Source: an uncultured Endomicrobiia bacterium (GTDB lineage: Bacteria > Elusimicrobiota > Endomicrobiia > DTEH01). From it: 47,151 nucleotides of DNA. The notes under the pieces are model-generated. The model was not told where the DNA came from and searched no databases. It saw nothing but the letters and a program-made list of their open reading frames with translations. The position numbers were made by a program, and so were the translations under genes. Below are positions 9,145 to 34,340 of this stretch, one piece after another; the first letter of the stretch is position 1; each line of letters opens with the position of its first letter. Where the stretch lies: assembly GCA_937928765.1 (NCBI GenBank), contig CALFVX010000016.1, positions 1 to 47,151 of the forward strand, given 5' to 3'.

Positions 9145-12100
9145 TTACTTATTTTTAGTTGAATAATATGTAAGATAAGTCAACGGGACAAAAAATAAAG
9201 TTAAAAATAAACTAAAACTTAACCCGCCTAAAATTGTTATAGCCATTGAAGAATTTGTATTCTGACCTACGATACCTAAAGCCAATGGTAAAAGTCCTAA
9301 TATAGTAGTAAGTGTTGTCATAAGTATAGGTCTTAATCGTTCTGAAGTAACTTCTATGACTATCTCAGTTAAACTTTTTTGTGGATTTTTTTCTCTTACA
9401 AAATTAAATTCACTAACAAGTATTATTCCATTATTCACAACTATCCCTATTAACATTATAAAACCTAACATTGAAATTGAATTTATTGTATTAAATGTTA
9501 AAAACAAAGAATATATCGCTCCTATAAGACCAAGAGGAACAGTAACCATAATAATTAAAGGTTGAACAAGTGATTCAAACTGAGAAGCTAATATCATATA
9601 TATAACTATTATTCCTAAAATTAAAGCAAAAAAAGACGATGATATAGATTCTCTTAAAGCTAAAACCTCACCTGTAATATCTATATAAACATCCTGTTCT
9701 TTAGATAATAACTCATTTTTAAAATTAATAAGTTCTCTAATAACTTTACTAAAACCTTTTTTTACATTTGCAAAGACAATATACATTCTTTGTCCCTCAG
9801 TTCTTCTTATTTCAGGAAAAGATGCTTCAAGTTTAATATCTGTAAACTGAACTAAATTAATATTTCTATCTAACAATTTAGAGTATACTGTTAACTCAGA
9901 AACTTTTGACAATTCTGTTCTATCTTTTGGGCTTAATCTTACTCTTATATCAAATTCATCTTCTTGTAATTTAAACTTTGTTGGAACATAACCTTTTATA
10001 CCAGCTAAAATAGTTGCAGATATGTCTTGTACTGAAAGTCCAAAAAGTGATGCTCTATCTCTATAAACTTCAATTTTTAGTTCAGGCACAGGTTGTAGTG
10101 GTATAATTTTTATTCCATACAAATCTTTTTTCTCCTTTAAAAAATTTGCAACTTCTTTTGCATATTCTTCTAATTTATTAATTTCTTTACCTTTTACTTC
10201 TACTGCAATATCACTACCACTACCCACACCAGAACCAAATAAACCTTGTTGAGTAATAAACTCAGCTTCAATTTTTGCAAATCTTATTTTTTTTATTTCT
10301 TTATTTACCAAAGATACTATTTCTGATGTCTTTCTACCTTTATTTTTAAGTTGTACAATAAACTTTGCTTGATTTGGACCAAGTGTTTCTACCTCACCAG
10401 TTTTTTCTTCTCCTGCAGAACCTATATTCACTATAATGTCTTTAGTTTCAGCAAGAGACATGATAAATCTTTCTATTTGAGAAGCAATTTCATTTGTTTT
10501 TTCAAGAATTGTGCTTGAAGGCAAAGTTATTGTTAAAATAAATTTTCTTTCATCTAATTTTGGCATAAACTCTTTTGGAATAAAATAAAAAATAATCAAC
10601 CCTACAAACAAATATATAAAAACTGTTCCATAGGTTATTTTAATAGGCATATCTAAAACTTTATTCAACAATTGAGGAAATTTTTTTAATAAATCATTTA
10701 ATTTATCTTTTTTAGTTGTTGTTTGAGTTATCATTTCAGCATATTTTTCTAAATTAAGCCATAGTGCTAATCTCGGTACTAAAAACAATGCTACTAAAAT
10801 TGAAGAAAACAAAGAAAAACTTACTGTAAGTGCTAATTGTTTAAACAGCTGTCCTACCACACCACCAACAAATACTAATGGAATAAAAATCGCTACTGTA
10901 GTCAAAGTAGAAGAGATTATTTCGCCAACTACATGAGAACTAGCAGAGTAGATAATTTCTTTTTTATCTTTTTGAGGATTCTTTTCTTTTTCAACAAAAA
11001 TTTTTTCTAAAACAACAATAGAATTATCTACAAGCATTCCAACACCTAATGCTAATCCTCCAAGTGACATAGTATTTATAGAAATGCCACCAAAATACAT
11101 TAAAGATAAAGTAGCTAATATTGCTAATGGAATTGAAATAATTATTATAACTGAAGCAACAATATCTTTAAGAAATATAAATAGAACAAAAAAAGCCAAT
11201 ATTCCGCCTTGAATAGCTGAAGAATAAATATTATTAAGAGATAATTTTATAAATTCTGCTTGATCATAGATTATTTTTAATTCTACATTATCAGGAAATT
11301 TTGTTTTTATAATTTCGTTTAATCTTTTTCTTACAACTTTAGACATATTTATCAAATTAGCTTTAGATTGCGGGTATATAGAAACAGAAATATGATTTTT
11401 TGCATTACATCTTGAATATCCTTTGATATCTTTAATAGATTCTTTTACTTCAGCAATATCAGACAAATAAACAACAGGCCTATCCTCTTTTTCTTTTTTT
11501 CTTCTATATCTTTTATATTTATCATATTCTGGTCGTCTCTCTACAGGTATTTGTAATTCTTGAATTTCTTTTATATTCTTAAATTCGCCGATAGTCTTTA
11601 CTACATATTCATTTATATCTTCTTTAATAGCTCCTGCAGGATATGTTATATTTGTTTCTTTTAAAGTTCTTATTATATCTAAAATTGATATTTGGTTTGC
11701 CAACAATCTTCCTTTATCAACTTCTACTAGTATCTCTTTTTCTGCACCACCATAAAGCTCAACTTTTGCTACTCCTTCAAGTCGCTCTAATTCATCTTTT
11801 AAATTTTTCTTACATAACATTCTCAATTCAGCAAGTTTTATAGGGTCATCTTGAGGGATTTTATAACTTACAGATAAATTCATTGCTTCAAGACGAAATG
11901 GATTATACTTTAACACAATTGGTTCTTGGGAATCTTTTGGTAAACGTTCTTTTATCAAATCAATTTTTTCTCTAACTTCTAAAGCAGCAAAATTTATATC
12001 AGTACCCCAATAAAATTCACAAACCACAATTGACACACCTTCTTTTGAAATAGAAGTCACTCTTTTTATATTTTTTGCAGTCCCTACTGTTTCTTCAATA

Positions 12101-12297
12101 AGTTTTGATATAAGTTTTTCTGATTCTTCAGGACCTGCTCCCTCATATTTTGTAATAATAGTAATTTGTGGATAATCTAAAGATGGAAAAAGTTCTTGTG
12201 GAAGACGATAAAAAGAAATTATACCAAATAAAGCAATTCCTAAAAAAATCATTGTAACAGTGGTAGGTCTATCAACTGAAATTCTAAAAACTGACAT
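9145..12297 (-). CDS. RND efflux pump inner-membrane subunit (second of a pair)
   Basis: 1050 residues, full length for an AcrB/MdtB-type RND transporter. It opens with the family pattern SVFRISVDRPTTVTM, has transmembrane helix 1, a large periplasmic loop, helices 2-6, a second periplasmic loop and helices 7-12. The proton-relay Asp lies in helix 4: VGMLVDNSIVV (D424). The TM10-12 block (MLGFIMLIGIVVNNGIILV) is intact. Its start is 3 nt after the stop of the upstream RND gene, so the two are coupled. Proton-driven export of drugs, lipids or metals through a TolC-type channel is expected; substrate unknown. A short basic insert (KYKRYRRKKEKEDRP) lies in the first periplasmic loop. Confidence 0.93.
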   Translation of the reverse strand: MSVFRISVDRPTTVTMIFLGIALFGIISFYRLPQELFPSLDYPQITIITKYEGAGPEESEKLISKLIEETVGTAKNIKRVTSISKEGVSIVVCEFYWGTDINFAALEVREKIDLIKERLPKDSQEPIVLKYNPFRLEAMNLSVSYKIPQDDPIKLAELRMLCKKNLKDELERLEGVAKVELYGGAEKEILVEVDKGRLLANQISILDIIRTLKETNITYPAGAIKEDINEYVVKTIGEFKNIKEIQELQIPVERRPEYDKYKRYRRKKEKEDRPVVYLSDIAEVKESIKDIKGYSRCNAKNHISVSIYPQSKANLINMSKVVRKRLNEIIKTKFPDNVELKIIYDQAEFIKLSLNNIYSSAIQGGILAFFVLFIFLKDIVASVIIIISIPLAILATLSLMYFGGISINTMSLGGLALGVGMLVDNSIVVLEKIFVEKEKNPQKDKKEIIYSASSHVVGEIISSTLTTVAIFIPLVFVGGVVGQLFKQLALTVSFSLFSSILVALFLVPRLALWLNLEKYAEMITQTTTKKDKLNDLLKKFPQLLNKVLDMPIKITYGTVFIYLFVGLIIFYFIPKEFMPKLDERKFILTITLPSSTILEKTNEIASQIERFIMSLAETKDIIVNIGSAGEEKTGEVETLGPNQAKFIVQLKNKGRKTSEIVSLVNKEIKKIRFAKIEAEFITQQGLFGSGVGSGSDIAVEVKGKEINKLEEYAKEVANFLKEKKDLYGIKIIPLQPVPELKIEVYRDRASLFGLSVQDISATILAGIKGYVPTKFKLQEDEFDIRVRLSPKDRTELSKVSELTVYSKLLDRNINLVQFTDIKLEASFPEIRRTEGQRMYIVFANVKKGFSKVIRELINFKNELLSKEQDVYIDITGEVLALRESISSSFFALILGIIVIYMILASQFESLVQPLIIMVTVPLGLIGAIYSLFLTFNTINSISMLGFIMLIGIVVNNGIILVSEFNFVREKNPQKSLTEIVIEVTSERLRPILMTTLTTILGLLPLALGIVGQNTNSSMAITILGGLSFSLFLTLFFVPLTYLTYYSTKNK

Positions 12298-12299
12298 AT

Positions 12300-15200
12300 T
12301 TATACTCTATTTTTTATTACACAAAATTTTAAAATATAAAAAATTTTTTCTTTAAATACTTTATTAAAATTTTCAAACCAAAAATACAACAAAGGAGTTA
12401 AAAATAATACAAAAAATGTTGAAATAAGCATACCACCAAAAATTGTTAATCCAAGTGTGCGCCACATAACAGATGATTCATCTGGATTTAATATTAAAGG
12501 TAACATACCTAAAATTGTTGTAATAGAAGACATAAATATTTCTAAAAGATATGCTTGAGGAGTAGCAAACACAACTTTTAGTGAACTACAATTTTTACTT
12601 CTTCTGTAGATATTCATCTTTTCTACGATAACGATTGCTGAATTTACAACTATACCACACAACATCATCAACCCAATCCAAACACCTAAACTTATTGGTC
12701 TTTTAAAAATCCACAAAAATAACGCCACACCAATTAAACCAAAAGGAATTGAAAGTATTATAATAAAAGGTTGCGAGTACGACTCAAACATAGCAGCAAG
12801 GGTCATATACACTAACAAAAAAGTTAAAATCAAAGCTAATGTAAACTGTTTTTTGTTTTTCGTCATATCTTCATATTCACCAGAAAATTTATAAGTGTAA
12901 TTTTCAGGAAAATTTATCTTTTTTAATTCATGATCAATATTTTTTATTGCTGTTGAAAGGCCCACCTTATGTCTATTACCACTTATTTGAATAAATCTCT
13001 TTTTATTTTTACGCCAGATTTCTTGCTGAGTGTTAATTTTTTCAATATTTGAAACTTGCTGTATTGAGATAATTTCTGCATAAGGTGTTACAAACATTAA
13101 ATTTTTAAGTTCTTCTACCGAAGAAACCGTCCCAGGAGTTAACCTACAAACTGTTTCTATTTCTCTACCTTCAGTTCTATAATATGTTGCAACAAGTCCT
13201 CTTAATTGAGCATGTAAAGTATTTGCAAGATACAAAGTTGTAAGTCCTAAAGAAGAAAGTTTATTTCTATCACTAAAAACAACAATTTCAGGTTCATCTT
13301 CACGCATGCGAATCTTTACATCAGTAATTCTTCTAAGCTGTTGTATTCTGCCAGAGCATAAAAATGCAAGTTGTTTCAATATTCCATAGTCATAACCATA
13401 GAAATCTATAAAAATTTCTTTTGAGGCTAGACTTTGAGATGGTTGATAATATAAAAAAGCAGGCATAAATTTGTCAAACTTTTTTCTAAAATCTTCTTTT
13501 ACATATTCTACATCTTTTTTCACTTTTACCTCAATAAAAGTATGTAATTTCTCAACCCTAGAACTAACTCTTTCTACTTGAGGATAATTTAATAGCTCCT
13601 TTTCAATATTTTTAACAATTTCATTAGAACGTTCAATTTTTGCTGCAGGAGGGAACTGCACACCTATACGAAAAGTATTAATCTCAGTTGTTTCCATAAA
13701 TTCTGATTCTCTTGTAGAAATTATATAAAAAGTAAATATAAAAAGTCCTAATGTGATAAACAAAATTTCTCTATAATTCCTAAATACAAACTTTAACAAA
13801 TTAATAAAATATTTTATTAATTTTTCTTCCCATTTGAGCTTCTTAAATTCTATTTTTTTAAATAGTTTAGGCATAAAATATGGAACAAAAATTATACTTC
13901 CTACTAAAGAAGCTAACAAAGAATATGCTATTGCTAAACCAAAAGGAGTGTATAATTTTTTAACTTCTGGTTCTAAAAACACAAGCGGCAAAAAAACTAT
14001 TATTGTAGTTAATGTAGAGGCAAGAATTGGCATAAAAAGTTCTTTTGTAGCATTCACAATTAACTTTGTTTTATCTTTTTCTTTTTTAGAATGTAAAGCA
14101 ATATTTTCTATTATTATGATAGCATTATCTACAAGCATACCAACACCGAGTCCTAAACCACTTAATGTCATCACATTAAATGATAATTTACTAAAATACA
14201 TTAAAATTACTGCTATACATAAACTTACTGGAATTGTAAGTATTATCACAAAAATACTTCTAAAATTTTTAAGAAATATAACTAATATAATTCCTACAAT
14301 AAAAGCACTAAACAGAAGAGAAACTGCTAATGAGGAAATTGATTTATTTATAAATTCAGCATCATTTTTTACTATTGTAAATATTATTTCGTTCCTAAAT
14401 TTATTTTTTAGCACTTCAATTTCTTCAAGGATATTTCTAGCAACAAGCAAAGTATTTGCAGTTGTTTCCTTTTGAATATATAAAGAAACAACAGATTTTA
14501 AGTTCAACCTCGCAAACGAAGTTGGTTCATAATAAGAATCTTTAACAGTTGCAATTTCACCAAGACGAATTACAGAACCTCTTTCTGTAACACCTACAGC
14601 GGTCTCATTAATTTTTTCAACATTTTCATATTCACCTGTAGCACGAATCAGAAATCTACTATCCACTTTTTTAATCTCACCTGCAGATACTGAAATATTG
14701 CTCAAATTTACTTTTTCAATAACGCTTAAAATTGGTAAACTATAGCTAACAAGTTTATTGTTATCTATATCAACTAAAATCTTCCTTTCTCTTCCTCCTC
14801 CTATTTCTATATTAGCAACTCCTGAAATACGAAAAAACCTTTCTTTTATCTTTTGTTCAGCAATTTCTCTTAATTGTTCTGGCGTGTAAACATCAGAAGA
14901 CAATACCAAAATAACTATTGGCACATCAGATTGCTGAAATTTTGCAATAACAGGCCTTTCCATTTCACGAGGTAATCTATGTCTTATAGTAGCAAGTTTT
15001 TCTCTAATTTCAAGAATAGCAAAATTTAAGTTTGTCTTAGGATGAAATTTTAAAACAATTACTGATTCTGCTTCTCTTGAGGCAGAAATAATCTCTTTTA
15101 CACCATTTACTTCTGAAAAAACTTCTTCCATAGGACGGGTTACATACTTTTCTACCTCGCTTGCAGGAACTCCACCACGAAGATGTGATATCACACTTAC

Positions 15201-15332
15201 TTCACCAAATTCATAGTTTGGATAGAGTTCTACATTGATATATCTTATACTCACTAAAGAAAAAACAAAAATACTACACATCAGCATTAAAGTTGTTACT
15301 GGCTTTTTTATACCTAACTCTACAATAGACAT
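12300..15332 (-). CDS. RND efflux pump inner-membrane subunit (first of a pair)
   Basis: 1010 residues, HAE-1/MdtC-like. Signatures: the N-terminal SIVELGIKKPVTTLM, helix-4 Asp in VGMLVDNAIIII (D402) and the C-terminal MMLCGIVVNSAIVIVEK. It is clearly diverged from the following RND gene, so this is not a recent tandem duplication. Two different RND subunits behind one membrane-fusion gene is the arrangement of heteromeric pumps such as MdtABC. The gene follows the fusion-protein gene by 13 nt and precedes its partner by 3 nt. Inner membrane, with periplasmic porter and docking domains; substrate unknown. Confidence 0.93.
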   Translation of the reverse strand: MSIVELGIKKPVTTLMLMCSIFVFSLVSIRYINVELYPNYEFGEVSVISHLRGGVPASEVEKYVTRPMEEVFSEVNGVKEIISASREAESVIVLKFHPKTNLNFAILEIREKLATIRHRLPREMERPVIAKFQQSDVPIVILVLSSDVYTPEQLREIAEQKIKERFFRISGVANIEIGGGRERKILVDIDNNKLVSYSLPILSVIEKVNLSNISVSAGEIKKVDSRFLIRATGEYENVEKINETAVGVTERGSVIRLGEIATVKDSYYEPTSFARLNLKSVVSLYIQKETTANTLLVARNILEEIEVLKNKFRNEIIFTIVKNDAEFINKSISSLAVSLLFSAFIVGIILVIFLKNFRSIFVIILTIPVSLCIAVILMYFSKLSFNVMTLSGLGLGVGMLVDNAIIIIENIALHSKKEKDKTKLIVNATKELFMPILASTLTTIIVFLPLVFLEPEVKKLYTPFGLAIAYSLLASLVGSIIFVPYFMPKLFKKIEFKKLKWEEKLIKYFINLLKFVFRNYREILFITLGLFIFTFYIISTRESEFMETTEINTFRIGVQFPPAAKIERSNEIVKNIEKELLNYPQVERVSSRVEKLHTFIEVKVKKDVEYVKEDFRKKFDKFMPAFLYYQPSQSLASKEIFIDFYGYDYGILKQLAFLCSGRIQQLRRITDVKIRMREDEPEIVVFSDRNKLSSLGLTTLYLANTLHAQLRGLVATYYRTEGREIETVCRLTPGTVSSVEELKNLMFVTPYAEIISIQQVSNIEKINTQQEIWRKNKKRFIQISGNRHKVGLSTAIKNIDHELKKINFPENYTYKFSGEYEDMTKNKKQFTLALILTFLLVYMTLAAMFESYSQPFIIILSIPFGLIGVALFLWIFKRPISLGVWIGLMMLCGIVVNSAIVIVEKMNIYRRSKNCSSLKVVFATPQAYLLEIFMSSITTILGMLPLILNPDESSVMWRTLGLTIFGGMLISTFFVLFLTPLLYFWFENFNKVFKEKIFYILKFCVIKNRV

Positions 15333-15345
15333 TTTATTGGAGTAT

Positions 15346-16614
15346 TTATTGTGGTTGGAATTGATTTTTATGGCTTGTTTCTTCTTCTATTTCTATATAT
15401 TCAACCAAAATACCATCTGAAAGTTCTCCTGTTGTTTCTACTACGCATAGCTCACCTTCTTCAACACCATCAGATATTACTGCTGTTTTACCAAAAATAT
15501 TTTCAACTTTTACATTTCTAAATTCTACTATTGCTTGGTTTGTTTTATTAACACTTGTAACAGGTTTAATTAATGGTAATAAATTTGTTTGTCCACCTAA
15601 ACTTATAACACTATCTAAAGGAACTGTTACTACATTGGATGCTTCTACAATTATAACTTCTCCTCTTGCAAACATTCCTGATTTAAGTAATCCTTCAGTA
15701 TTTGATATTTTTATTTTTACTAATACGGTTCTTGTTTTTTCTTTCACAATTGGCGATATCTCTGAAACAATCCCTAAGAATTCCTTGTCTGGATAAGAGT
15801 CACAATATACTTTTGTTTTCATACCAATTTTTACCTGCAGAGCATCCTTTTCAGGAATTTCAACTTCAAAATTTGCATCACCCATATTGACAAATTTTGC
15901 TACAACATCATTTGGTGTAACAAACTCTCCTGGTTGCACTATTATTTCTGCAAGAATACCATCAGATGGTGCATAAAGATTTGTTTTTAATAATGCAGAC
16001 TGAGAAAGTTCAAGTTCTGCAGATGCTGTCTCCATTCTTTGCCTTATTGCTTCTACTTCATATTTTGTCTCTAATAGTTTAGATTCAGAAATTGCTTTCA
16101 ACTTGAAAAGGTCTTCATAGACCTTTAGTCTTTGTTGTGCAGAAAAAAATGCTGCTTTTTCACTTTCATATTTACTTTTAGAATAAGAAACTTTAGCCAT
16201 AGCATCTTTTGGATCAAGATATGCAATGATATTACCCTTACCAATTCTTGCTCCTTCTTTATAATTATATTTAAACAAAACACCATCTACTTCAAACCTT
16301 AATTCATTTTCTAAAATACCTTTTATTGTTCCTAATACAGAATATTTCTGGGAAAAATCAGTCCTTTTAATTTTTGCAACTTTTACTTTCACTAGCTGTT
16401 GTTCTTTTACTTTTGATTCTTTTTTTCTAAATATAAAAAATTTACCAATAACAAAAATTATTGCCAAAATTAAAATACTACCAATTACAATAGTTAACTT
16501 GCGTTTGGTTTTAAAACTATTTTTTATAAACTGGAAAATCCAGTTAAAAACAAAAAATATTTTTTCTTTTAAGAAAATAAGAATTTTGACTAAAAAACTT
16601 AAAATTTTTTTCAT
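15346..16614 (-). CDS. RND efflux membrane-fusion (periplasmic adaptor) protein
   Basis: 422 residues, HlyD/AcrA family. A membrane segment (about 41-60) follows an unusually long basic N-terminus of about 40 residues with its own hydrophobic stretches. Then come the lipoyl halves (RFEVDGVLFKYNYKEGARI and LYAPSDGILAEIIVQPGEFV), an alpha-hairpin between them (about 140-200), a beta-barrel (VYCDSYPDKEFLGIVSEI) and a membrane-proximal domain. It bridges the RND pair and the TolC-like channel. The gene is 27 nt after the TolC-like gene and 13 nt before the first RND gene. It is inner-membrane anchored by a helix rather than by lipid, since no lipobox is seen. Confidence 0.92.
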   Translation of the reverse strand: MKKILSFLVKILIFLKEKIFFVFNWIFQFIKNSFKTKRKLTIVIGSILILAIIFVIGKFFIFRKKESKVKEQQLVKVKVAKIKRTDFSQKYSVLGTIKGILENELRFEVDGVLFKYNYKEGARIGKGNIIAYLDPKDAMAKVSYSKSKYESEKAAFFSAQQRLKVYEDLFKLKAISESKLLETKYEVEAIRQRMETASAELELSQSALLKTNLYAPSDGILAEIIVQPGEFVTPNDVVAKFVNMGDANFEVEIPEKDALQVKIGMKTKVYCDSYPDKEFLGIVSEISPIVKEKTRTVLVKIKISNTEGLLKSGMFARGEVIIVEASNVVTVPLDSVISLGGQTNLLPLIKPVTSVNKTNQAIVEFRNVKVENIFGKTAVISDGVEEGELCVVETTGELSDGILVEYIEIEEETSHKNQFQPQ

Positions 16615-16641
16615 ATTTATATACCTCTAAAATAACTAAAT

Positions 16642-18024
16642 TTATCTTAAAGGAATTATAACAAGTTTCTCAAGTTCAGTCACAGAAGTGTAATTTTGAA
16701 GAATCGCCTTTGAATAATTAATAACTGCTTCTGAAACTTGCCATACACCACCCATAACTTCTACAGTGGAAGCTTCGTATAACGCGTTTTTCTTTTTTAA
16801 AACTTCCAACTTCCATTTCTTAAATTCAAGGTCATCTTTAGCAACCCTTGCATCTAATAAAGATGTGGAGTATTCGTTATAAAATTTTTCTAACTCTAAA
16901 AGAATAGTATTTTTTGCTTCATCAAACTCTGCTTCTGTAGAGGTTTTAATCACATCTGCTTCTTTTCTTTCAACAAAATATTTAATGTCGTCAAATAAAC
17001 CAATTCTTGTGTCCAGAACAGTGTTATCAATTCTTGCTGAAACATCTAAAATTTCTCTTGGAATTGCTTTATCTTTTTGATATCCAGACTCAACTGAACT
17101 ACCACCAAATAACCATGATAATCTAAGCATCCCACTCCATACAGTAGAAAGCTCCAATGGCTCTGTAACATATGCTTCACCACTTTGACCATAACTTCCT
17201 TCAAAATAAAATTTAGGATATGTTTTGCCTTTAGCCATATTTTTTCTCTCTTCTGCCATACTCATCTGTAATTTTAACTTTCTTAAATCTATGTTATTAG
17301 TAACTACTAAATTCTTTAATGCAGGTAAGTCAAAATCAATCTCTTTTGGAAGCGATTCAAAAATTTCAACCTGTAAAGGAAAAATTATCTCATCTAAACT
17401 TTTTATTCCAACAAGTGATAAAAGTTTATTTTTAAAAAGTGTTTTATTCATTTTTGATCTATCATACATATTTTCTACTTTTTTTTTAAATATTTTTCCT
17501 TCTTTTAGTTCAATTTCTGATATTGCTTTTGCATTATATTCGTTTTCAAGTTTTTTATAGTAATTATCTATTTCTTGAAGCATTTTTTCTATTTCTTTAA
17601 CTTCTAATGTAGATGATACATATTCATAATATGCTAATTTTATTTTATATGTAAGCTCTTCTTTTAATTTAGTATACTCTAATTTTGCTACTTCTAAAGC
17701 AAGAGATTGATATTTATGTGCAGCAGTAAGACGGCCACCATCATATATAGGTTGAGATAATCTTAACCAAATATCTTCTGCTTGATACTCTTCAGTTATT
17801 GTTTTACCGCGGGAATACCTTCTTTGGAAAATTATATTTGGCAGGAAACTTCTTGTTGTAACCCACAATTGTCTTTTTGCAAGAAGGATCTCTTCTTGTT
17901 TAGCAGTTAATTTTTTATTTTTTTGTATTGCAATATCAATACAGGTATTTAAGAAGTAGTCTGAAGAAAAAATCTGATTAGATAAAAAAAATATGAAAAA
18001 TGTAAACAAGAATTTTTTGGGCAT
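16642..18024 (-). CDS. TolC-like outer-membrane efflux protein
   Basis: 460 residues from the ATG at 18024; a TTG four codons upstream is possible but less likely. There is a signal peptide (KKFLFTFFIFFLSNQIFSS). The rest is the OEP family pattern: two repeats of long amphipathic helices joined by strands, with AIQKNKKLTAKQEEILLAK near the start and RLSQPIYDGGRL in the first half. This is expected to be a trimeric outer-membrane barrel with a periplasmic tunnel, serving the adaptor and RND proteins encoded next. It is the first gene of the efflux operon, transcribed away from the small paralog pair; no good Shine-Dalgarno sequence precedes either start. Confidence 0.88.
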   Translation of the reverse strand: MPKKFLFTFFIFFLSNQIFSSDYFLNTCIDIAIQKNKKLTAKQEEILLAKRQLWVTTRSFLPNIIFQRRYSRGKTITEEYQAEDIWLRLSQPIYDGGRLTAAHKYQSLALEVAKLEYTKLKEELTYKIKLAYYEYVSSTLEVKEIEKMLQEIDNYYKKLENEYNAKAISEIELKEGKIFKKKVENMYDRSKMNKTLFKNKLLSLVGIKSLDEIIFPLQVEIFESLPKEIDFDLPALKNLVVTNNIDLRKLKLQMSMAEERKNMAKGKTYPKFYFEGSYGQSGEAYVTEPLELSTVWSGMLRLSWLFGGSSVESGYQKDKAIPREILDVSARIDNTVLDTRIGLFDDIKYFVERKEADVIKTSTEAEFDEAKNTILLELEKFYNEYSTSLLDARVAKDDLEFKKWKLEVLKKKNALYEASTVEVMGGVWQVSEAVINYSKAILQNYTSVTELEKLVIIPLR

Positions 18025-18096
18025 ATATATTGACAATACTTTAAAAATTTTGTATTTATATTTTACGAAATTAAATTATAAATTTCAAGAGGGTTT
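18025..18096. promoter_or_regulatory. divergent intergenic region
   Basis: 72 nt, almost entirely A/T, separating the TolC-like gene (minus) from the first small paralog (plus). It must contain or overlap both promoters unless the minus-strand operon starts inside the plus gene. The plus gene has a GAGGG ribosome-binding site just before its ATG. I cannot define -35/-10 hexamers with confidence. Confidence 0.35.
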
Positions 18097-24632: not shown

Positions 24633-27600
24633 TTATCCTGCGCTAAGGAGTCGTTTAATTCTTTCTACACTAATTGATTCAAAACCTTGTGTGTCTAACA
24701 ATGGTTTTGCATATTCTTTAGTAAGAAGGTCTAATATTTCTAACATTGCAGCAACAGACCATGCTTGAGACACACACCCACCTTGGCTATAAGGAGCATT
24801 TCCACTAAACACTTCTGGCAATGTGGTGTTAGATCTAACAAAGTATAAAAAGTTGTTGATTTTTAGTTTAAGTTGTTCTATAACTTCTTTATATGGCCTA
24901 TCCTTAAGAACACTAATTTTTGCTCTTACATATTCTTTAATTAACCATGGCCATACTGTACCTTGATGATAAGCAGGATCTTTTGTCTCTATATCTGATA
25001 AAGTATCATAATATCCTCTGTATTTTGTATCTTTTGGTGATAATGTCCTTAATCCGTAAGGTGTTAAAAGATCTCTTTCTACAACTTCTATAATTTTTTC
25101 TTTTAGCTCTTTTGGCAACAAATCTTCAGTATGAGTTAATGATAACAAAATTAAAGCGTTTGGTCTTATTGCATCTTTATGTTCGTCACCATCAAGGACA
25201 TCGTATGGATAATCTCTTTTTTCAAAAAATCTTTCTAAAATTGAAGTTCTAACTTTATTACTAAGTTCTATATATTCATTACTTTTTTTCTTATCTCCAA
25301 CAATACGATAAAATTCTGCTACTATTTTTAATGCATTATACAACAACGCCTGTATTTCAACAGGTTTTCCATTACGAGGTGTATATTTTGTATCCATCCA
25401 GGTATATTGTGCAGGAACTACAACAAGATAATCTCTATCCATATAAATTGTCCCAGATTCAGCAGTATACCTTTGTATAATTTTAGTTATTGTAGGTAAC
25501 ATCTCTTTTACAAACTCTATATCTTCAGTTACCTCATAATATCTGTATAACGCTTCAACAAACCATAACGAACCATCTGCAGTGTTGTATTCAGCTTTAC
25601 CATCAGGCCAGATCCTGTTAGGTATAATTCCATCATTTGATTGATATTTTGCGTAGAACCTAAACAGTTGTTTTGCTTCTTCAAATCTTCTTGTAACAAT
25701 TAAAAGTCCGGCTAAACTTATAAAGCTATCTCTACCCCAAGACTGATCAAACCAAGGATATCCAGCAAGGATTTTAACACTTCCATCTTTATCTCTCAAT
25801 ATAAAAGAATCTGCTGAAACAAGAAGCTTGCTAAACACATCATGATACTCTTGGTTAATATGTTGCATATCAGACCGACCTATGCTATACAGATATTCTT
25901 GTCGCAAAATATCTTCAAGCAACCCCTGGATAAATCCAAAAAGTTGAATGGTAAGTTTTGCTTTTTGGTCAACATCAGTAGTTGCAGAAGCCATCCTTTG
26001 TAAATGTTCTACATAACTATAAACTTCAGGTAGATTGTCTCTAGTTATCCCAGCATCATTTAATATAGAAAAAAACTTTGTAAAGAAATCAGTATGATAA
26101 CTATGATGCCAAAGTGCCCATTTACCTTTTTCACCCATAAACTTTATCCACTGATATGCTACCAATAAACAATGTAGATGCGGTGCATTAATGTTACCAA
26201 ATGGTAATTCTTTTTTACCATCATCATATAAAAGTTTAAAATTTTGAATGCCTACTTGTCTTAATCTACTTAAAACTTCAAGAGATTTTCCTTGTGGTAA
26301 ATTAAGATTTTTACCTACTAAAAATCCTTGCATAAAATATCCCTCATCTGTTCTTTTTTCTGTTATATCAATTAGTATTTTTATAAATTCTGTAATATCA
26401 AAATTTCTTTTTGATGCTAAAGGTATACGGTACCTCCATAAAGAACGCATTGTGCCATCTTCAGCTTGAATTTCTTCTTTCACAGGCTTTTCTTCACCAA
26501 ATTGGTCTCCTATAACAAAAGATACAAATTCAGCGCCTGAAGTTAAAACTTGCCTGAAAAATTCTTTAAATGATTCTTCCGTATGGTTAATATTATATTT
26601 TTTTACTAATTGATGATTATTATGTGGTCTTGGTGAATCATGTGAACTTATCTGAAACCATCCTTTTTTATTATTTTTTGTTTCTTTTTTCAAACTTTCT
26701 GTATCAAACCAGTCAACATTCATTACAGTATATATATCATATTTGTCTCTAATATGGCGGTCTATACCTTCAAAGGATTCTGCTAAAATTATTGCTTGCG
26801 AATTTATTGCTCTTATCTGCGTTATAAGTGTTGACACAAAATCATCACCTTTTTCATTACCTGACTGTTCTATGTTGTTGCCCAAATGTGTTAAAGGATA
26901 TGCAAAATGTAGAGCATCTAAACGTAGACCATCAAATCCAAATCTCATCCAATGAAGGATAGGATTGATAAATAACGAATACCCATCTTTTGCAAGTTCA
27001 TCCCAATTGTATAATATAAGATCATTCCATCTTTGTCCCCAGATATACGGTGAACGTTTGTTTACATCAAAATATTGAGAATGATATAATACATCAACTG
27101 AAGATTTCCCTCTAAAAAATGGTATATCAAACATAATTTTTGCACCTTCTTTATGTAATTCTTTAATAACTTTTTTAAGTTGTTTATAAGCAACATATTG
27201 CATATATTCATAAAGACCTTGGTATGTTTCAAACACACCAGGATTTAGATTTTTAACACTTTCTATTTCTTGCACACTTTGAGGAGTCCTACCTAAAATT
27301 TTTGTTGCAGCCATAAAACTTGAATAATTCTTAAGCCAAAAATAGTTTTCACTAATAAATTTTTTAAACTCTGCTGACTTTTTTCTAGAAAGAAAATGAG
27401 TATAAACAACTTTAGCAGATTCAAATTCTATCTGTCTTACTAGTTGATAATCTATAAATTCCTGCTCAGCTAAAGAAAGCTTTTCTTTTAGTTGTTCTAT
27501 AACAGTTTTAGGTAGTTTAAGTTCTTCAGATTCTTTAATCCAGTCAATAAATAGTTCATTTATAGCATATGGCGAAACAGAAGAATATGGTGATTCTCCT

Positions 27601-30600
27601 AATGGAGTAAAATGAGGTAACAACAATATAGTAGACACACCTGCTGGTTTTAACATTGTTCTGTAAACTTCAAGTAGATCAGTTAACTTTCCTATACCAT
27701 AGTTAATCTTTGAATTCCTTAATGAAAATATAGGCAAACTGCAGGCAATCTGTGTTTTAGTAGCCATCCATAAACCATTTTTTTCATCTTTTTTTATTCT
27801 ATCAATAATTTGAAGTTTTGTCCTATATGCAGGTAACCACATCTCAACTATATATCTTTTAACTGTAGTAGTTATATCTACATTAGGAGTTGTCTGTAAA
27901 GCGTTCCACATTATCTTTGTCCATGAAACATCAAAGTTACCTTTGTTTATTTCAGACAAACTACTTTTATAAACTTCCCAAGCTCTTACTAATACATCAA
28001 TTACTCCTATAGGCAAAGGTCTTCCATTATCATCATAGAATCTTACAAAGAAACCGTTTTCTGAATCCCTTATATGTTCTAAAGGACCACCTGTTTTTGT
28101 AGCAATTGTAGGTATAGCGTTTACAAGTCCTTTCATATAACCTGTAGCTGAAGCTTCTGTTTCAAGTTGGGACAACATACATAAAACATCTGCTCCCTGA
28201 AACACTATTGGCGCTTCTGCTACATTGAAATTTTCAACAAACACAATACTACCTATTAACCTTTCATCTCTTGCAATTTCTCGTTCATTGCCATAATTAT
28301 CTACTTCTATGATTCTACCTTCAGATAATGCTTTCAATTCTCTAACACGTGCTAAACCCCATTTATCTTCTATATGTTGCTTACCTAAAAAAATTTGCAC
28401 CACACCAGTAGATAAAAATTTTTCTCTTAGTTGAGGGTCTCTCATTGCACGAATAAATGTATCCACTGATTTAAAATCTGTTTTTCTTCTAGCTTCAACA
28501 GAAAAAAGTCTTGAAGTATCAAGCTTAATATTTGTTTTAGCATATATCCAATCTGCAAACCTTTGTTTTACTTCTTTATGAAGCTCATACATTTTTTTCA
28601 AATTTTCAGCAGTAGGCTGTTGGCCCACTAAAGGTTGGAATTCTTTAAGTTGCCAATGTGCAAGGTTTATTCCATTGACTATACCCAAAATAAGACCTTT
28701 AAATTCAGGATATAACCTTCTTTGTGTTACTTCAGCGTGTTCTTTTGATACACCATTTACTGTATCACAAAGTGTTAAACATATTTTTGTCAAATCAATT
28801 CTACCTTTACGTATTATACCATATTGCCATAAATAAGGATTAAGACCTATAAATTTTTCAGATTCTATTGGCATAGTTTGTAAACCTGCTTCAACAGGTG
28901 TATGTGTAGTAAACCCATAAATTAAAGAATTTAAAAATTCATCATCTGTAAAACTATCTTTTACAACTTTAGGATGTGCAAAAGCTGTCAACGCTTCGTT
29001 AAGTTGTACTATTACAGGTTCAATTTCGCTAAATGTTAAACCAAGTGATAATATTTTTTGTCTAAATTCAGGCCTTCCTTCATTAATTTCTTTTAATATT
29101 GCTAAAGTGCCTCTACCTAAAAGCAGCATCTGTTTTTCTCTTAAACTATAATCACCAGGATAAATCTCTCTTGTTATCTCAGGATGAGATAAAAACAAAA
29201 CTACTGCTTTTTTGTTCGTCTTTGGCGCATTAAATGCTGCTGCATAAACTTTAACCGCCTCTTCTTTGCCATACATAGGAACTACAACTTTCCCTATATA
29301 AATAAGTCTACCTTTATTTATTGCCTCAGTATAATCTACAGGCCGTAATTCAATACTTCCGTCTTCTTTTTGCCAAGGAGAATATTGATATAACAAACTT
29401 ACACCTATTGCGTTCATACCCATATCTGTAAGTTGAACTAACTCTTCAGTTACTAACGGTTCAAGACCACCTGTTTGATGTCCATTGGCTACACGAATAC
29501 GCATCTCAGGGTCAGAAAACACTCTAAGAAAATCTGGTGATGGTTTAAATCCTGGCGAAACATGAACAAATGTCTTCGCAAATAATTCCGGAGCGTTCTG
29601 TTGGAGCCAACTGTAATTTTTATTATTTATAACCATCTTTCTTGTTATTTTTTCTGCATTGTTCTTAGGATTGATTGTGTGAGAAATGTTTTTAATAATA
29701 CCTTTTAAAGAGTTAACAGTTAATTCCAAATTAGATTCTCCAGATAACACTTCAATATTTTTGTTAATTTCATTTATTAAATCTTCCAATTCTTTCTTTG
29801 TAGAAATTTTTCTTTCTTTTATCAACCTAGCGACAATATCTGATTTTTTTATTTTCTCTTCTTTATCTCCTAAAATTAATTTTGATAGAATTTCTTTATA
29901 ATCTTCATTTTTAATTTCATCCAGCAAAATTTTTATTTTATTTTCTCTTTGAGGCTTGAATGAATATTTCCTTGCTACAAAATAAAGTAATAATCTTATT
30001 TTTTGTAATTCACTAAGTTCATCTAATATTTCTTTAAACTTCCATTCTTCTATTTCAAATAGAACTTCAATAAATTTTGTGGTAAAAATTTCTCCTTTTG
30101 CAAGTTCTGTTAAAATTTCTATCTCAGCAGCAATTCTGTTTAAACTTTTTTCCAAAGCTGGTTCTGAAGACAAATATGCAACACAAAATGGATATATCTT
30201 ATCTACACCTTTTTGATATAGTTGTAAAACTACCTCTTCTAAAAAAGTTCCTGTAACTACTAGATCATCTAAAAATATTACATTTTTAGCATTTATCTCT
30301 CTTTCTACTGTTATACTTTCCTTTGCCCGGTTGATTCTTTCTTCCTCTGAAAGGTCTTGATAAGTAACAGTTATTTCTTTGGGTTTCCTTTTTATAGGTA
30401 TAAACTCTATATCTAGATCTTCTGCAATTTTCTTAGCAGCTAACATTATGGATCTATCTACCTCTCGGGATTCATATGCAAGGATAACCCAATTTTTAGG
30501 TTGATTTTTCACTTCGGGTAAAGTATTAAGAATTTTATTTTTAAGTAAATCAGTAATTTTTTCTACAGTTTTTTTGTGGCCAATCTTAAATCTTGAATAT

Positions 30601-33600
30601 AAAATTGCTAAATCTTTATCTTTATCTAAATTCTCAATTTTGTAAATGTATTTTATAGAATTCAACACTGCTATTTTTTTTAATATTTTCCAAATATCTT
30701 GCTGGTTAGAACCTACATCTATACATCTTATACCAGAAATTGGTATTTCACTATCAGCTTGTCCTTCTTTAAAACTGTTACCAATATATATAACTTCATC
30801 TGGTGATATACCTTTACTAAGTATATTTTTTACTGCATCAAGTTTTGATTTTTTAGCAACTGTAACCTTACCTTCACTCCACCACACCGTGAACTTAAGG
30901 TTATTTTTATTCAATTCTTCTCTTACTTTTTCAAATACATCTCTGGCAACACTTTCTTCTTGCGAAGAAAGTTCTAAAACAATTTTCCCACTATCCTCTT
31001 TAACTTCTCTTATATTGCTAATATTCTCTATACCTATATTATATCTAAGATAATTTAAAATTCTTATTATCTCTTTAATCTCTTCTTTTGAAAAAACTTC
31101 TTTTTCTAAAAGTTCATCTCCACGATAAACATAAGCACCATTTTCAGCATATACTATTACATTTTTATACAAATCCTGTGAAATATGATTTAATACATCT
31201 CTATATGTCCTTTCTATTGAACCAGTAGTTAACAAAACCAACGGAATTCCTAACTTAAGCAAAGCCTCTAACGACCTTAACACATTAGAATGAGAATCCT
31301 TAATTGTAGTATGAGTATCTGGAGTTAATGCCCCACCTATATCACAAATCACCATCTTTGGTGGATTTTCTTCTATAGTTTTTAATCCTTCTGGTATAGA
31401 ATATATTTTTTTATTACTTTCTTCTATAATACTTTCTGCGAATCTAGACAATTCAATTAGTGGTGAGTTATCTTGTTGAAGTTTTTTATGGAAATCTTCG
31501 GAAGTTTTAGTAGGATTATTTTTAAGGTAGGTATATTCTTCAATCTCATGTAATAAAAGCAATCTTAATAAATTCTGTTGCTGAGGTGGAGATTTGTTTT
31601 TTAAACTTTCAAGAAATACCTCATGAATGTATAAAGTCACTTCAGAGGTGCGTCTGTTAACTTTCAGTGTTGCTAGCGCCAATGCTTCTTTCTGAATTAA
31701 CATAGGATTTTTACTAACCTTAATGTTAAACTTTACTTCACCATCAACTAACGAAATTAACTCTGAATTAAATTTCGCCTCTTTAAACAAAATATCTAAA
31801 AACTTACCATATCTATTTTTTGATTCTTCATCTGAAAGAACCATCTTACCATCTTCACCTTCAAACAATACTACAATCTTATCAGACAAACTTATTGCAG
31901 AATCTAAAAGAAAATTCGCTAACAAAGGATTTCTATATTTGATTTGATTAGCAACGATATTTATAAATTTTTTTATATCTACTCCTAACGCCTGCAGCCT
32001 TTCAGTTTCCTTCTTTTTTTCAAATATTTTTGAAGTTTTTTCTTTTCTAAATGTAATAAACCATTCGCTTAATGAAACAAAAATTTCTTCTATTAATGGT
32101 GATATTTTTTTAGTAAGATTTAAATGTCTTAATTCATGATTATAAATTATTCTTTGTAACCAGTATGGCAGGCGAGCCATCAAAGAAGTGTTTATATAAA
32201 TTTTCCCATCAACAATTTTTGCAGGTGTGAATCTATCTGTAAGTATTTTCTGTTCTGAAGATAGATCAGCGAATTCATCAATTAGTCCTACTGGCGGTGC
32301 TTTTTCTAATCCTGCACGAATTATATAATAAGAATGAACAAAAAAATAAGATGAGAGTATACCTCCAACAATCCAGCCAAATGGTGTTGAAAATAAAAAT
32401 GAACCAATAACACCAGAAATTGTAGCCGTTAAACCGCCTATTATTATACGGTTTAATAAAGAAAATTTCTTCTCACTTTTAGGTTCATCAAGCACTTTTA
32501 TTTCTTTTATTTTCTTACCTTTTATTACAAACTCATATGTTTTATTATCAACTTTTACTATGTATCTTCCTTCATCGGTTAAATTCAGTGAAACCTCTGT
32601 TTTAATATTATTATCTTTTATCCATTTGTTTACAACTTCCAGAATCTCATTCTGAGGTTTTCCTTGTAATATTCCGCTTGCAAACATTGTTAAAATTATC
32701 CATTCTTTAGTTTCAGGAACTACACCTAGGCTTAACAACATCGGTGCAAAAGAAGAAATAACAAAATCTTTTATATCTATCTTTCCGATTAAAATTCTTT
32801 CATATATTGTGTCATCAAATTCCCTTGTAACATTTGGGACTATTGTAATATATGAGATACCATTTTTATTTAACATTTCTGTAAGGTTAAAATGAAATCC
32901 ACCTGTGACTATTATATTTATCTCTTTGAAATCTTTGAGTTTAGTTAATACATCTATATAATTTTTTTCGCTGTTATTTACTTGTTTTTCTCTATTGGCA
33001 AAATTTATATTATTTTTTACTATTTCATAAAATATTCTATCTCTATCTATATTTGTTTCATAAAATTTATATATTTCTTCATCATTTACAAAGTTTATTA
33101 CATCTTGTATCTCATAATCTTCAAAATACTTCTTCAACAATATTTTAAACTTGTCAACATTTTTACTAAAATATTTAAACTCTTCATATGTAATCTTTAA
33201 ATCTAAAAAATTTTTCAAATGTTGAGCCATATCTGACAAAAATAAAATTTCTTTATCTAACTGTTTGGTTGAAAATAGATTTAGAATGTTCCTTATTAAT
33301 ATCCTCTCTTCTATGGTTAAATATATTGGATTTATACTATAGTTAAGTTGTATATACTCGAAAAATTTATCTAAATTTGGGTATTTATATTTTATGTCTG
33401 GCGTATACTCTTTTGCTACTGTTAACAATGATAAATAATATTCTTCAAGTTTATTTGAATCTTTCATTTTTTCTGTAAGAGCGCTATAGATACCGTAAGG
33501 GATTATGTTTTGCAATTCTTTAAAATAATATCTTAGTTCTTTTGCAAGATGTCTGAAATTAAGTTCTTTATTTAACTTTACCATCCTTATATACTTTTTC

Positions 33601-34340
33601 AAATTAGGATAGAAATTTATTCCTATATCTAGTTTTTTACACAAGTTTTCTATTACAAGATAATATTCTGCTGGGTTGTGTTTTTTTTCTTGAGACAATA
33701 ATTTTTCCATCTTTTTTATTTTCTTTGAAAGATATTTTCTTTTAAGCAAATCAATTTTATAATTTAGTACATTTGAGATTTTTATATACTTATCTTTATT
33801 CAAAATTATATTTTTTATTCTGTTATAGTTTGACAAGTATGTGTCCCATTTTTCTACTCCGTAGAGTTTATCTTTATTATTTACAATAGAATAATATTCT
33901 GCTGCGCTGATTAGACCTTTATTTAGCAGACTATCTAATGTCATATTTTTTATTTCTCTATCAGGAATTGAAGAAAGAATTTTAATATCAATTTTTCCTT
34001 CAGGAGCGCCTTCAACAAATATTTTTGATATGTTATATTTATTATCAAAAAGTTTTATTATTTCATAAATATTTTTCTGAACTTCAGGATGGCAGTGTAA
34101 GTCTTGGATATATATAATCAAACAATCACTGCTTGTATAATTACCCTCTACAATACGGCCAAACTTATAAGGTAGAACAAACTTATCAATTTTTTTTATT
34201 ATTTGCTGAATTTGTTTGGTTTCATCTATAAGTTTCGTTATACCTATAAGAGGTTCATATAAAATAAAAGTGTATACAAAAAATGATAAAACTATTACTG
34301 TTATAGTTTTTATCATTCGTGTGTATATAAACATTTTCAT
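24633..34340 (-). CDS. giant multidomain membrane-anchored glycogen-degrading protein
   Basis: 3235 residues in one uninterrupted frame; the ATG at 34340 follows an AGGAAGA ribosome-binding site. Order of parts: basic N-terminus and hydrophobic anchor (about 12-30); ChaN/Tiki-like domain (about 55-500; DLHCH with H82, GGFHF with H483); two hydrophobic segments (about 632-675); a region with HExxH (HELRH, 735-739) and a second His/Glu cluster (LLHEIEEY, H931); HAD-like domain (about 995-1222); phosphoribosyltransferase-like domain (DD at 1358-1359 in FLDDLVVTGT); GT35 phosphorylase-like domain (about 1570-2190); GH13-like domain (about 2197-2690); GH133 amylo-1,6-glucosidase domain (about 2720-3215). 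The last three are the activities needed to take branched glycogen to glucose-1-phosphate and glucose. Why they are joined to an anchor and the upstream domains is unknown. Families are firm for the C-terminal half, looser for the N-terminal half. Confidence 0.9.
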   Translation of the reverse strand: MKMFIYTRMIKTITVIVLSFFVYTFILYEPLIGITKLIDETKQIQQIIKKIDKFVLPYKFGRIVEGNYTSSDCLIIYIQDLHCHPEVQKNIYEIIKLFDNKYNISKIFVEGAPEGKIDIKILSSIPDREIKNMTLDSLLNKGLISAAEYYSIVNNKDKLYGVEKWDTYLSNYNRIKNIILNKDKYIKISNVLNYKIDLLKRKYLSKKIKKMEKLLSQEKKHNPAEYYLVIENLCKKLDIGINFYPNLKKYIRMVKLNKELNFRHLAKELRYYFKELQNIIPYGIYSALTEKMKDSNKLEEYYLSLLTVAKEYTPDIKYKYPNLDKFFEYIQLNYSINPIYLTIEERILIRNILNLFSTKQLDKEILFLSDMAQHLKNFLDLKITYEEFKYFSKNVDKFKILLKKYFEDYEIQDVINFVNDEEIYKFYETNIDRDRIFYEIVKNNINFANREKQVNNSEKNYIDVLTKLKDFKEINIIVTGGFHFNLTEMLNKNGISYITIVPNVTREFDDTIYERILIGKIDIKDFVISSFAPMLLSLGVVPETKEWIILTMFASGILQGKPQNEILEVVNKWIKDNNIKTEVSLNLTDEGRYIVKVDNKTYEFVIKGKKIKEIKVLDEPKSEKKFSLLNRIIIGGLTATISGVIGSFLFSTPFGWIVGGILSSYFFVHSYYIIRAGLEKAPPVGLIDEFADLSSEQKILTDRFTPAKIVDGKIYINTSLMARLPYWLQRIIYNHELRHLNLTKKISPLIEEIFVSLSEWFITFRKEKTSKIFEKKKETERLQALGVDIKKFINIVANQIKYRNPLLANFLLDSAISLSDKIVVLFEGEDGKMVLSDEESKNRYGKFLDILFKEAKFNSELISLVDGEVKFNIKVSKNPMLIQKEALALATLKVNRRTSEVTLYIHEVFLESLKNKSPPQQQNLLRLLLLHEIEEYTYLKNNPTKTSEDFHKKLQQDNSPLIELSRFAESIIEESNKKIYSIPEGLKTIEENPPKMVICDIGGALTPDTHTTIKDSHSNVLRSLEALLKLGIPLVLLTTGSIERTYRDVLNHISQDLYKNVIVYAENGAYVYRGDELLEKEVFSKEEIKEIIRILNYLRYNIGIENISNIREVKEDSGKIVLELSSQEESVARDVFEKVREELNKNNLKFTVWWSEGKVTVAKKSKLDAVKNILSKGISPDEVIYIGNSFKEGQADSEIPISGIRCIDVGSNQQDIWKILKKIAVLNSIKYIYKIENLDKDKDLAILYSRFKIGHKKTVEKITDLLKNKILNTLPEVKNQPKNWVILAYESREVDRSIMLAAKKIAEDLDIEFIPIKRKPKEITVTYQDLSEEERINRAKESITVEREINAKNVIFLDDLVVTGTFLEEVVLQLYQKGVDKIYPFCVAYLSSEPALEKSLNRIAAEIEILTELAKGEIFTTKFIEVLFEIEEWKFKEILDELSELQKIRLLLYFVARKYSFKPQRENKIKILLDEIKNEDYKEILSKLILGDKEEKIKKSDIVARLIKERKISTKKELEDLINEINKNIEVLSGESNLELTVNSLKGIIKNISHTINPKNNAEKITRKMVINNKNYSWLQQNAPELFAKTFVHVSPGFKPSPDFLRVFSDPEMRIRVANGHQTGGLEPLVTEELVQLTDMGMNAIGVSLLYQYSPWQKEDGSIELRPVDYTEAINKGRLIYIGKVVVPMYGKEEAVKVYAAAFNAPKTNKKAVVLFLSHPEITREIYPGDYSLREKQMLLLGRGTLAILKEINEGRPEFRQKILSLGLTFSEIEPVIVQLNEALTAFAHPKVVKDSFTDDEFLNSLIYGFTTHTPVEAGLQTMPIESEKFIGLNPYLWQYGIIRKGRIDLTKICLTLCDTVNGVSKEHAEVTQRRLYPEFKGLILGIVNGINLAHWQLKEFQPLVGQQPTAENLKKMYELHKEVKQRFADWIYAKTNIKLDTSRLFSVEARRKTDFKSVDTFIRAMRDPQLREKFLSTGVVQIFLGKQHIEDKWGLARVRELKALSEGRIIEVDNYGNEREIARDERLIGSIVFVENFNVAEAPIVFQGADVLCMLSQLETEASATGYMKGLVNAIPTIATKTGGPLEHIRDSENGFFVRFYDDNGRPLPIGVIDVLVRAWEVYKSSLSEINKGNFDVSWTKIMWNALQTTPNVDITTTVKRYIVEMWLPAYRTKLQIIDRIKKDEKNGLWMATKTQIACSLPIFSLRNSKINYGIGKLTDLLEVYRTMLKPAGVSTILLLPHFTPLGESPYSSVSPYAINELFIDWIKESEELKLPKTVIEQLKEKLSLAEQEFIDYQLVRQIEFESAKVVYTHFLSRKKSAEFKKFISENYFWLKNYSSFMAATKILGRTPQSVQEIESVKNLNPGVFETYQGLYEYMQYVAYKQLKKVIKELHKEGAKIMFDIPFFRGKSSVDVLYHSQYFDVNKRSPYIWGQRWNDLILYNWDELAKDGYSLFINPILHWMRFGFDGLRLDALHFAYPLTHLGNNIEQSGNEKGDDFVSTLITQIRAINSQAIILAESFEGIDRHIRDKYDIYTVMNVDWFDTESLKKETKNNKKGWFQISSHDSPRPHNNHQLVKKYNINHTEESFKEFFRQVLTSGAEFVSFVIGDQFGEEKPVKEEIQAEDGTMRSLWRYRIPLASKRNFDITEFIKILIDITEKRTDEGYFMQGFLVGKNLNLPQGKSLEVLSRLRQVGIQNFKLLYDDGKKELPFGNINAPHLHCLLVAYQWIKFMGEKGKWALWHHSYHTDFFTKFFSILNDAGITRDNLPEVYSYVEHLQRMASATTDVDQKAKLTIQLFGFIQGLLEDILRQEYLYSIGRSDMQHINQEYHDVFSKLLVSADSFILRDKDGSVKILAGYPWFDQSWGRDSFISLAGLLIVTRRFEEAKQLFRFYAKYQSNDGIIPNRIWPDGKAEYNTADGSLWFVEALYRYYEVTEDIEFVKEMLPTITKIIQRYTAESGTIYMDRDYLVVVPAQYTWMDTKYTPRNGKPVEIQALLYNALKIVAEFYRIVGDKKKSNEYIELSNKVRTSILERFFEKRDYPYDVLDGDEHKDAIRPNALILLSLTHTEDLLPKELKEKIIEVVERDLLTPYGLRTLSPKDTKYRGYYDTLSDIETKDPAYHQGTVWPWLIKEYVRAKISVLKDRPYKEVIEQLKLKINNFLYFVRSNTTLPEVFSGNAPYSQGGCVSQAWSVAAMLEILDLLTKEYAKPLLDTQGFESISVERIKRLLSAG
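24690..26183 (-). other. amylo-alpha-1,6-glucosidase (GH133) domain
   Basis: Residues about 2720-3215. It has the (alpha/alpha)6-barrel signatures of the debranching-enzyme C-terminus: GYPWFDQSWGRDSFIS (D2871), DGIIPNRIWPDGKAEYN, TADGSLWFVEALYRYY, PAYHQGTVWPWLI (H3125) and GGCVSQAWSVAAMLEIL. Expected to release glucose from alpha-1,6 branch stubs left by the transferase. The chain ends about 20 residues after the domain. Confidence 0.88.
26271..27752 (-). other. GH13-like glucanotransferase/alpha-amylase domain
   Basis: Residues about 2197-2690. SPYSSVSPYAINELFIDW near the start is typical of 4-alpha-glucanotransferases and of the transferase half of glycogen debranching enzyme. The catalytic set is complete: nucleophile D2475 in FDGLRLDALH, acid/base E2521 in ILAESFEG and the transition-state Asp D2568 in SSHDSPR. 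With a GH133 domain right behind it, a debranching-enzyme transferase role is the best reading. Confidence 0.8.
27770..29633 (-). other. alpha-glucan phosphorylase-like (GT35) domain
   Basis: Residues about 1570-2190. Signatures are GHQTGGLEPL (H1621), HTPVEAG, VNGVSKEHAEVTQRR (N1862) and the pyridoxal-phosphate lysine region ETEASATGYMKGLVNA (K2070), followed by a TGGPLEH segment. The layout matches the short, Thermotoga-type phosphorylases rather than the muscle/GlgP type. Expected reaction: phosphorolysis of alpha-1,4-glucan to glucose-1-phosphate. Confidence 0.8.
30675..31358 (-). other. degenerate HAD-like domain of the first giant protein
   Basis: Residues about 995-1222 follow the Cof/sucrose-phosphatase type of HAD fold: motif I is VICDIGGALT (nucleophile D1000), motif II LLTTGS, a Lys-containing SKLDAVKNIL, and motif IV IGNSFKEGQAD (G1187). 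The canonical DxDGT is changed: the second Asp (general acid/base) is Gly1002 and Thr is Ala. Motif IV lacks the GDGxND form. Catalysis is therefore doubtful; a binding or structural role is more likely. Confidence 0.7.
32841..34178 (-). other. ChaN/Tiki-like domain of the first giant protein
   Basis: Residues about 55-500. It begins with a strand and His pair (IIYIQDLHCH), continues with a helix reading VQKNIYEII, then KIFVEGAPEG, and closes with ITVILV-like strand INIIVTGGFHFNLTEML. This first-strand His and late GGFH pattern recalls ChaN/TraB/Tiki-type proteins. The long middle (about 130-430) is all helical. Heme binding or peptidase activity cannot be claimed from sequence alone. Confidence 0.45.

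Follow-up and report, generated by a model that had tools for sequence, protein, structure and literature searches.

What might a bacterium do with a single polypeptide of more than three thousand residues in which a phosphorylase-like, a glucanotransferase and a debranching glucosidase domain follow one another at the C-terminal end? The question is raised by P0001, a giant ORF on the minus strand of the window (the whole stretch of DNA analysed here, 47,151 nucleotides from an uncultured Endomicrobiia bacterium). A sequence-only reading of this DNA, which left the strand unstated, had seen in it the whole glycogen-breakdown pathway on one membrane-anchored chain. The explanation that we favor, to which we give about an even chance, is that P0001 would represent, with its catalytic sites intact, an arrangement that is old and shared across the class: an exported or membrane-anchored giant with an EreA/ChaN-like head, in which an alpha-glucan module (GT35-GH77-GH133) makes up the last third to half of the chain, the same module having become a pseudoenzyme in relatives.

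The single frame of 3235 codons holds: no interruption was found, the codon-position GC is of coding type from end to end, and an independent genome from a different species of the same genus (G002) carries the same ORF at 3502 aa. The source genome (G000; 1.54 Mb, 96.5% complete, 47 contigs) supplies P0001 on a single contig, which is all that speaks for an assembly or annotation artefact fusing adjacent genes; the recurrence of the ORF in an independent assembly, together with related giants in further genomes, refutes such an artefact for both genomes, and we consider it next to impossible. The features of the chain are collected in Table 1.

Table 1. Features of P0001, with residues of the protein, positions in the window, strand and basis of assignment
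Feature	Residues	Positions	Strand	Basis
Giant ORF P0001, 3235 aa		24633..34340	-	ORF list; ortholog in G002 (3502 aa)
N-terminal hydrophobic segment, signal peptide or anchor	4-30	34251..34331	-	Hydropathy; Sec-like N-termini in family
EreA/ChaN-like head	50-530	32751..34193	-	Head alignment, phylum search
Hydrophobic hairpin, kept in G002	632-684	32289..32447	-	Hydropathy, comparison
HAD-like segment, DxGGxLTPD replacing DxDGT	995-1190	30771..31358	-	Motif in P0001 and G002; Hydrolase_3 match in G002
Phosphoribosyltransferase-like segment, motif FLDDLVVTGT	1237-1410	30111..30632	-	NCBIfam GntX/ComF 1237-1388, E 1e-6 to 8e-6
GT35 (glycogen phosphorylase)-like domain	~1580-2160	27861..29603	-	Pfam, NCBIfam, profile alignment, residues
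GH77 domain; D2475, E2521, D2568	2193-2640	26421..27764	-	Pfam, PDB matches, tree, alignment
Intervening segment	2641-2840	25821..26420	-	C-terminal part also lies ahead of GDE_C in G049 (separate 539-aa GDE)
GH133 amylo-alpha-1,6-glucosidase domain; D2922, E3176, R2870	2842-3205	24726..25817	-	Pfam, PDB match, alignment

Elsewhere in the window, a second giant ORF (P0002; 35037-47126, minus strand, at least 4029 aa) has a helicase-like DEAD/ResIII match at residues 2327-2451. It nearly reaches the contig end, its N-terminus may be missing, and similarity to the head family described below was not found in it. The minus strand also carries an RND efflux set at 9145-18036, comprising two AcrB-type pumps (1050 and 1010 aa), an HlyD-like adaptor and an outer membrane OEP channel, and a 618-aa ORF with a DnaA ATPase domain at 169-2025.

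The glucan-active domains

First, the upstream domain belongs to GT35, as had been proposed. The Pfam family PF00343 (Phosphorylase) scores 47.2 bits against a cut-off of 27, with its best stretch at residues 1898-2088, and the NCBIfam model TIGR02094 matches residues 1624-2099 (E 2.4e-15, below its subfamily cut-off), both placements falling within the interval of 1570-2190 in which GT35 had been expected. In an hhalign profile alignment, nearly all of the segment pairs with the genome's own GlgP (probability 99.3, E 2.4e-20, 562 columns). The domain is thus homologous to the GlgP-type alpha-glucan phosphorylases (GT35, TIGR02094/DUF3417 type) and keeps the PLP lysine (K2070), the phosphate site (R1951/R1952/K1957), H1813, E2062 and the GGL loop, a His377 equivalent being among the residues present and the numbered residues being kept in both G000 and G002. 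It differs from them in being embedded in a giant, in sharing only 24% identity with the separate GlgP, in lacking the N-terminal part and C-terminal tail of GlgP, and in departing from the full set of conserved GlgP-type active-site positions: NEGH reads NEAL, GGLG reads GGLE and, unlike in GlgP-type enzymes, the residue two before the PLP lysine is Y. An AF2 model of this part, built from 3 sequences, has a pLDDT of 35.

Second, the transferase domain proves to be GH77, not GH13-like as first read: PF02446 scores 135.8 bits (cut-off 25) over residues 2202-2640, and the best PDB matches are amylomaltases. GH77 belongs to clan GH-H. The eukaryotic-type glycogen debranching enzyme profile, TIGR01531, reaches 100 bits on P0001 against a cut-off of 1399, and a GH13-type transferase was not recovered. 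The proposed catalytic triad, on the other hand, lies at exactly the residues named (Table 1), and in alignments these coincide with the catalytic D/E/D both of stand-alone MalQ proteins and of the GH77 fusions of the phylum.

Third, the C-terminal domain belongs to GH133, PF06202 (GDE_C) scoring 339.9 bits (cut-off 21) over residues 2842-3201. D2922 and E3176, which we take to be the counterparts of the catalytic acids of the eukaryotic debranching enzyme, are conserved in all aligned Elusimicrobiota relatives, including all giants.

How might these domains work together? Most likely, the module degrades branched alpha-glucan in this genus: the GT35 part would shorten the outer chains with phosphate, the GH77 part would move the remaining stub off the branch, and the GH133 part would remove the alpha-1,6-linked glucose, the residues for the latter two steps being in place. 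The one-chain pathway is supported in part: the three glucan-active domains, their order and their intact active-site residues are borne out, but GT35 is divergent, and a separate, normal GlgP (875 aa) is encoded in the same genome with a GH57 gene nearby. The genome further encodes a GlgA-type GT5 and three GH57 genes, and a search of it found no other GH77, no other GDE_C (GH133) and no GH13 (PF00128). P0001 is the only carrier of GH77 and of GH133 in G000, and not its only phosphorylase.

The N-terminal half and a family of giants

The N-terminal half of P0001 opens with an export- or anchor-like segment, and to this extent the membrane-anchored chain of the sequence-only reading stands; the segment may be an anchor or a signal peptide. 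The N-termini of the family that shares its head resemble Sec signals, with an AxA-like motif closing several of them, and export of the head-family giants is likely. P0001 itself is predicted to be exported or membrane-anchored, and cleavage, anchoring or a fold-back via the 632-684 hairpin may each apply, positive charges flanking this hairpin on both sides. Two points speak against the favored reading here: a phosphorylase working outside the cytoplasm would be unexpected, as glucose-1-phosphate has no obvious use there, and the HAD- and phosphoribosyltransferase-like segments are likewise of cytosolic types.

The head has six residues that are invariant in the alignment (D80, H82, E110, E148, E163, H483), a D/H/E/E/H pattern reminiscent of ChaN (PF04187) and of the erythromycin esterase EreC-like fold. 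The PF04187 profile, however, matches only the head of a relative, weakly and below its cut-off (23.7 bits vs 27.7, 5.6e-5), and the Foldseek match of the head to EreC is not significant (E 0.32). Membership in the ChaN/Tiki superfamily is accordingly not assigned.

Heads of this kind match in 69 of the 341 genomes of the phylum searched, often in several copies and in ORFs of up to 11,814 aa; P0001 is the sole member in G000. Fifteen other members carry scattered known domains only (protein kinase, PGM_PMM, GGDEF, nucleotidyltransferase, M23, LysM, UDPGP). Within the class, a number of copies from species with small genomes contain several stops and look like pseudogenes. Judged from these sequences, the head defines a large, essentially undescribed family with variable cargo, and neither the family nor a GT35-GH77-GH133 fusion was found described in the open-licence literature. 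Elusimicrobiota are rich in huge proteins, which received no COG assignments (PMC11573180), and the giant proteins of Omnitrophota have been linked to predation or adhesion (PMC10066038). These giants resemble the present ones in their very long ORFs, transmembrane segments and few annotated domains, but no conserved family or module was described there for Elusimicrobiota, and the Omnitrophota proposal is not a glycogen pathway (PMC11573180; PMC10066038).

Conservation in the genus and decay in the class

Is the module kept for its chemistry? A search for the same architecture in other genomes returned the whole of it in G002, with the same order and all key residues, and a decayed block in other Endomicrobiia. 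Between P0001 and its G002 ortholog, identity is 63.5% over 1691 columns from residue 1555 to the C-terminus and ~40% over the N-terminal 760 residues; by domain, the head is 44.8% identical, the two halves of GT35 75.2% and 70.1%, GH77 62.0% and GH133 67.2%, and the enzyme block as a whole is ~65% identical against 45% for the head. No part of the chain evolves more slowly than its GT35 domain. Given that the separate GlgPs of the two genomes are 76.8% identical, the GT35 part is constrained about as strongly as a housekeeping enzyme. In the three enzyme domains dN is ~0.18-0.30 at a dS above 1 (saturated, and to be read qualitatively only), and strong purifying selection on these domains within the genus is supported by the two sequences.

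The ortholog and its surroundings show some features of their own. Residues 1400-1700 of the G002 protein (L024) contain two LOG (lysine decarboxylase-like) copies that are absent from P0001, one with PGGYGT and one with a degenerate VGGVGT. About 40 bp upstream, in the same orientation, lies a 3871-aa giant of the head family (G002:C35, L118, ~26.3-37.9 kb); the neighbor in G000 differs. The giant was not found in G001 (same genus) or in G003 and G004 (same family), whose assemblies are incomplete, and it is therefore not essential to the group.

Outside the genus, the block is recognizable and damaged. The giants of G021 (4376 aa) and G038 (3676 aa) have a deletion of the PLP half of GT35 and substitutions at two of the three catalytic positions of GH77, the remaining block staying in register. 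In G316, G317, G020, G026 and G031, whose giants measure ~2,800-3,200 aa, profile searches of the C-terminal end recover first the N-terminal part of GT35, then the N-terminal part of GH77 and then weaker GH133 traces, an order that matches P0001; G018 holds a partial remnant with traces of the N-terminal part of GT35 and the linker only. Remnants are unlikely to give rise to a complete active site again, which makes the intact GT35-GH77-GH133 order the probable ancestral state. The decayed C-modules align over essentially their full length, with C-module/head identities of 80/80, 56/53, 72/73 and 51/48%, as compared to 65/45% between G000 and G002, a pattern to be expected if the module is active in G000 and G002 and is kept as a pseudoenzyme in the relatives. 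We infer that in these relatives, where neither the PLP-binding half nor the GH77 triad has been retained, the block survives as a conserved pseudoenzyme; and as the same block is decayed yet conserved in other Endomicrobiia, catalysis would not be the family's general function.

Three further readings have to be weighed against this pattern. P0001 might be a debranching enzyme in which GH77 and GH133 are active, a GT35 pseudo- or near-enzyme binds the glucan, and the separate GlgP performs phosphorolysis. The presence of that normal GlgP near a GH57 gene, the loss of NEGH, the loss of the PLP half in relatives and the replacement of the PLP lysine by M in the giant of G058 all point this way, whereas the retention of K2070, R1951/R1952/K1957, H1813 and E2062 in two species and the slow evolution of the domain do not, and we hold this reading to be possible, if somewhat unlikely. 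(The G058 giant, L027, is a 7386-aa ORF with another GT35-like domain at about residues 2430-2970.) The bolder proposal is a glycogenolytic assembly line, in which an anchored or exported phosphorylase-debranching fusion would pass the glucan from GT35 to GH77 to GH133, this being the ancestral state of a family that later became pseudoenzymatic. Domain order along the chain is weak evidence for substrate hand-over, and the proposal, although plausible for this genus, strikes us as rather doubtful. Lastly, the captured metabolic domains could be folded building blocks of a surface or periplasmic structural giant, any catalysis being incidental or vestigial. The head family, spread over 69 of 341 genomes, does carry variable cargo, its members mostly lack known domains or show scattered kinase, PGM, GGDEF and M23 matches, and head and decayed C-module evolve at equal rates in relatives; but the enzyme block is far more conserved than the head between G000 and G002, and the active-site residues tested are all kept except those listed for GT35, which makes a purely structural role improbable.

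Under the favored reading of an intact alpha-glucan module, P0001 would, if active, place all three steps of glycogen breakdown on one chain, so that one could ask directly if fusion speeds branch removal, with the decayed relatives as natural controls that have the same order and the same chain without catalysis. The shared head, the defined C-terminal module and the enzyme-to-pseudoenzyme transition also offer a first foothold in the uncharacterised giants of Elusimicrobiota.

Comparison with known fusions

Where does the module come from? Fusions of GH77 and GH133 are widespread in Elusimicrobiota, either as proteins of ~1,000-1,130 aa or, joined to an S8 protease plus HEAT repeats, as proteins of ~2,650-2,870 aa. 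In quick trees with some long branches, the GH77 of the giant groups with these fusions apart from MalQ (100%), and the GH133 domains of the giants form one clade (100%) that includes the separate 539-aa GDE of G049. The neighbors of that GDE are non-glucan genes, which rules out this locus as a model for fusion from adjacent glucan genes. ORFs of ~2,700 aa elsewhere in the phylum were considered as further carriers of GT35; those inspected consist of S8 protease, HEAT repeats, GH77 and GH133. In other Elusimicrobiota, L066 and L067 join an S8 subtilase, HEAT repeats, GH77 and GH133 on one chain of ~2,700-2,870 aa.

The idea that a phosphorylase was added to a debranching pair thus needs to be divided: GT35 in front is the new element, and the GH77-GH133 pair is phylum-wide and not special to this giant. 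The phylum's fusions share with P0001 the same GH77 subfamily, the motifs DALHF, AEAFEG and SSHD, and a GH133 domain next in line; they differ in that GT35 was not found in the fusions inspected and that their N-terminal domains are other ones or none. Among the genomes searched, no other phosphorylase-debranching enzyme fusion was found outside the relatives of this giant. Eukaryotic glycogen debranching enzymes (e.g., the Candida enzyme, PDB 5d06) likewise unite a 4-alpha-glucanotransferase and GH133 on a single chain, and the GH133 of P0001 matches theirs by sequence, but their transferase is of the GH13 type rather than GH77, and they have no phosphorylase, head or anchor. By these sequence comparisons, what is new in P0001 is the placement of GT35 ahead of a GH77-GH133 pair already common in the phylum, all of it beneath the head of a giant.
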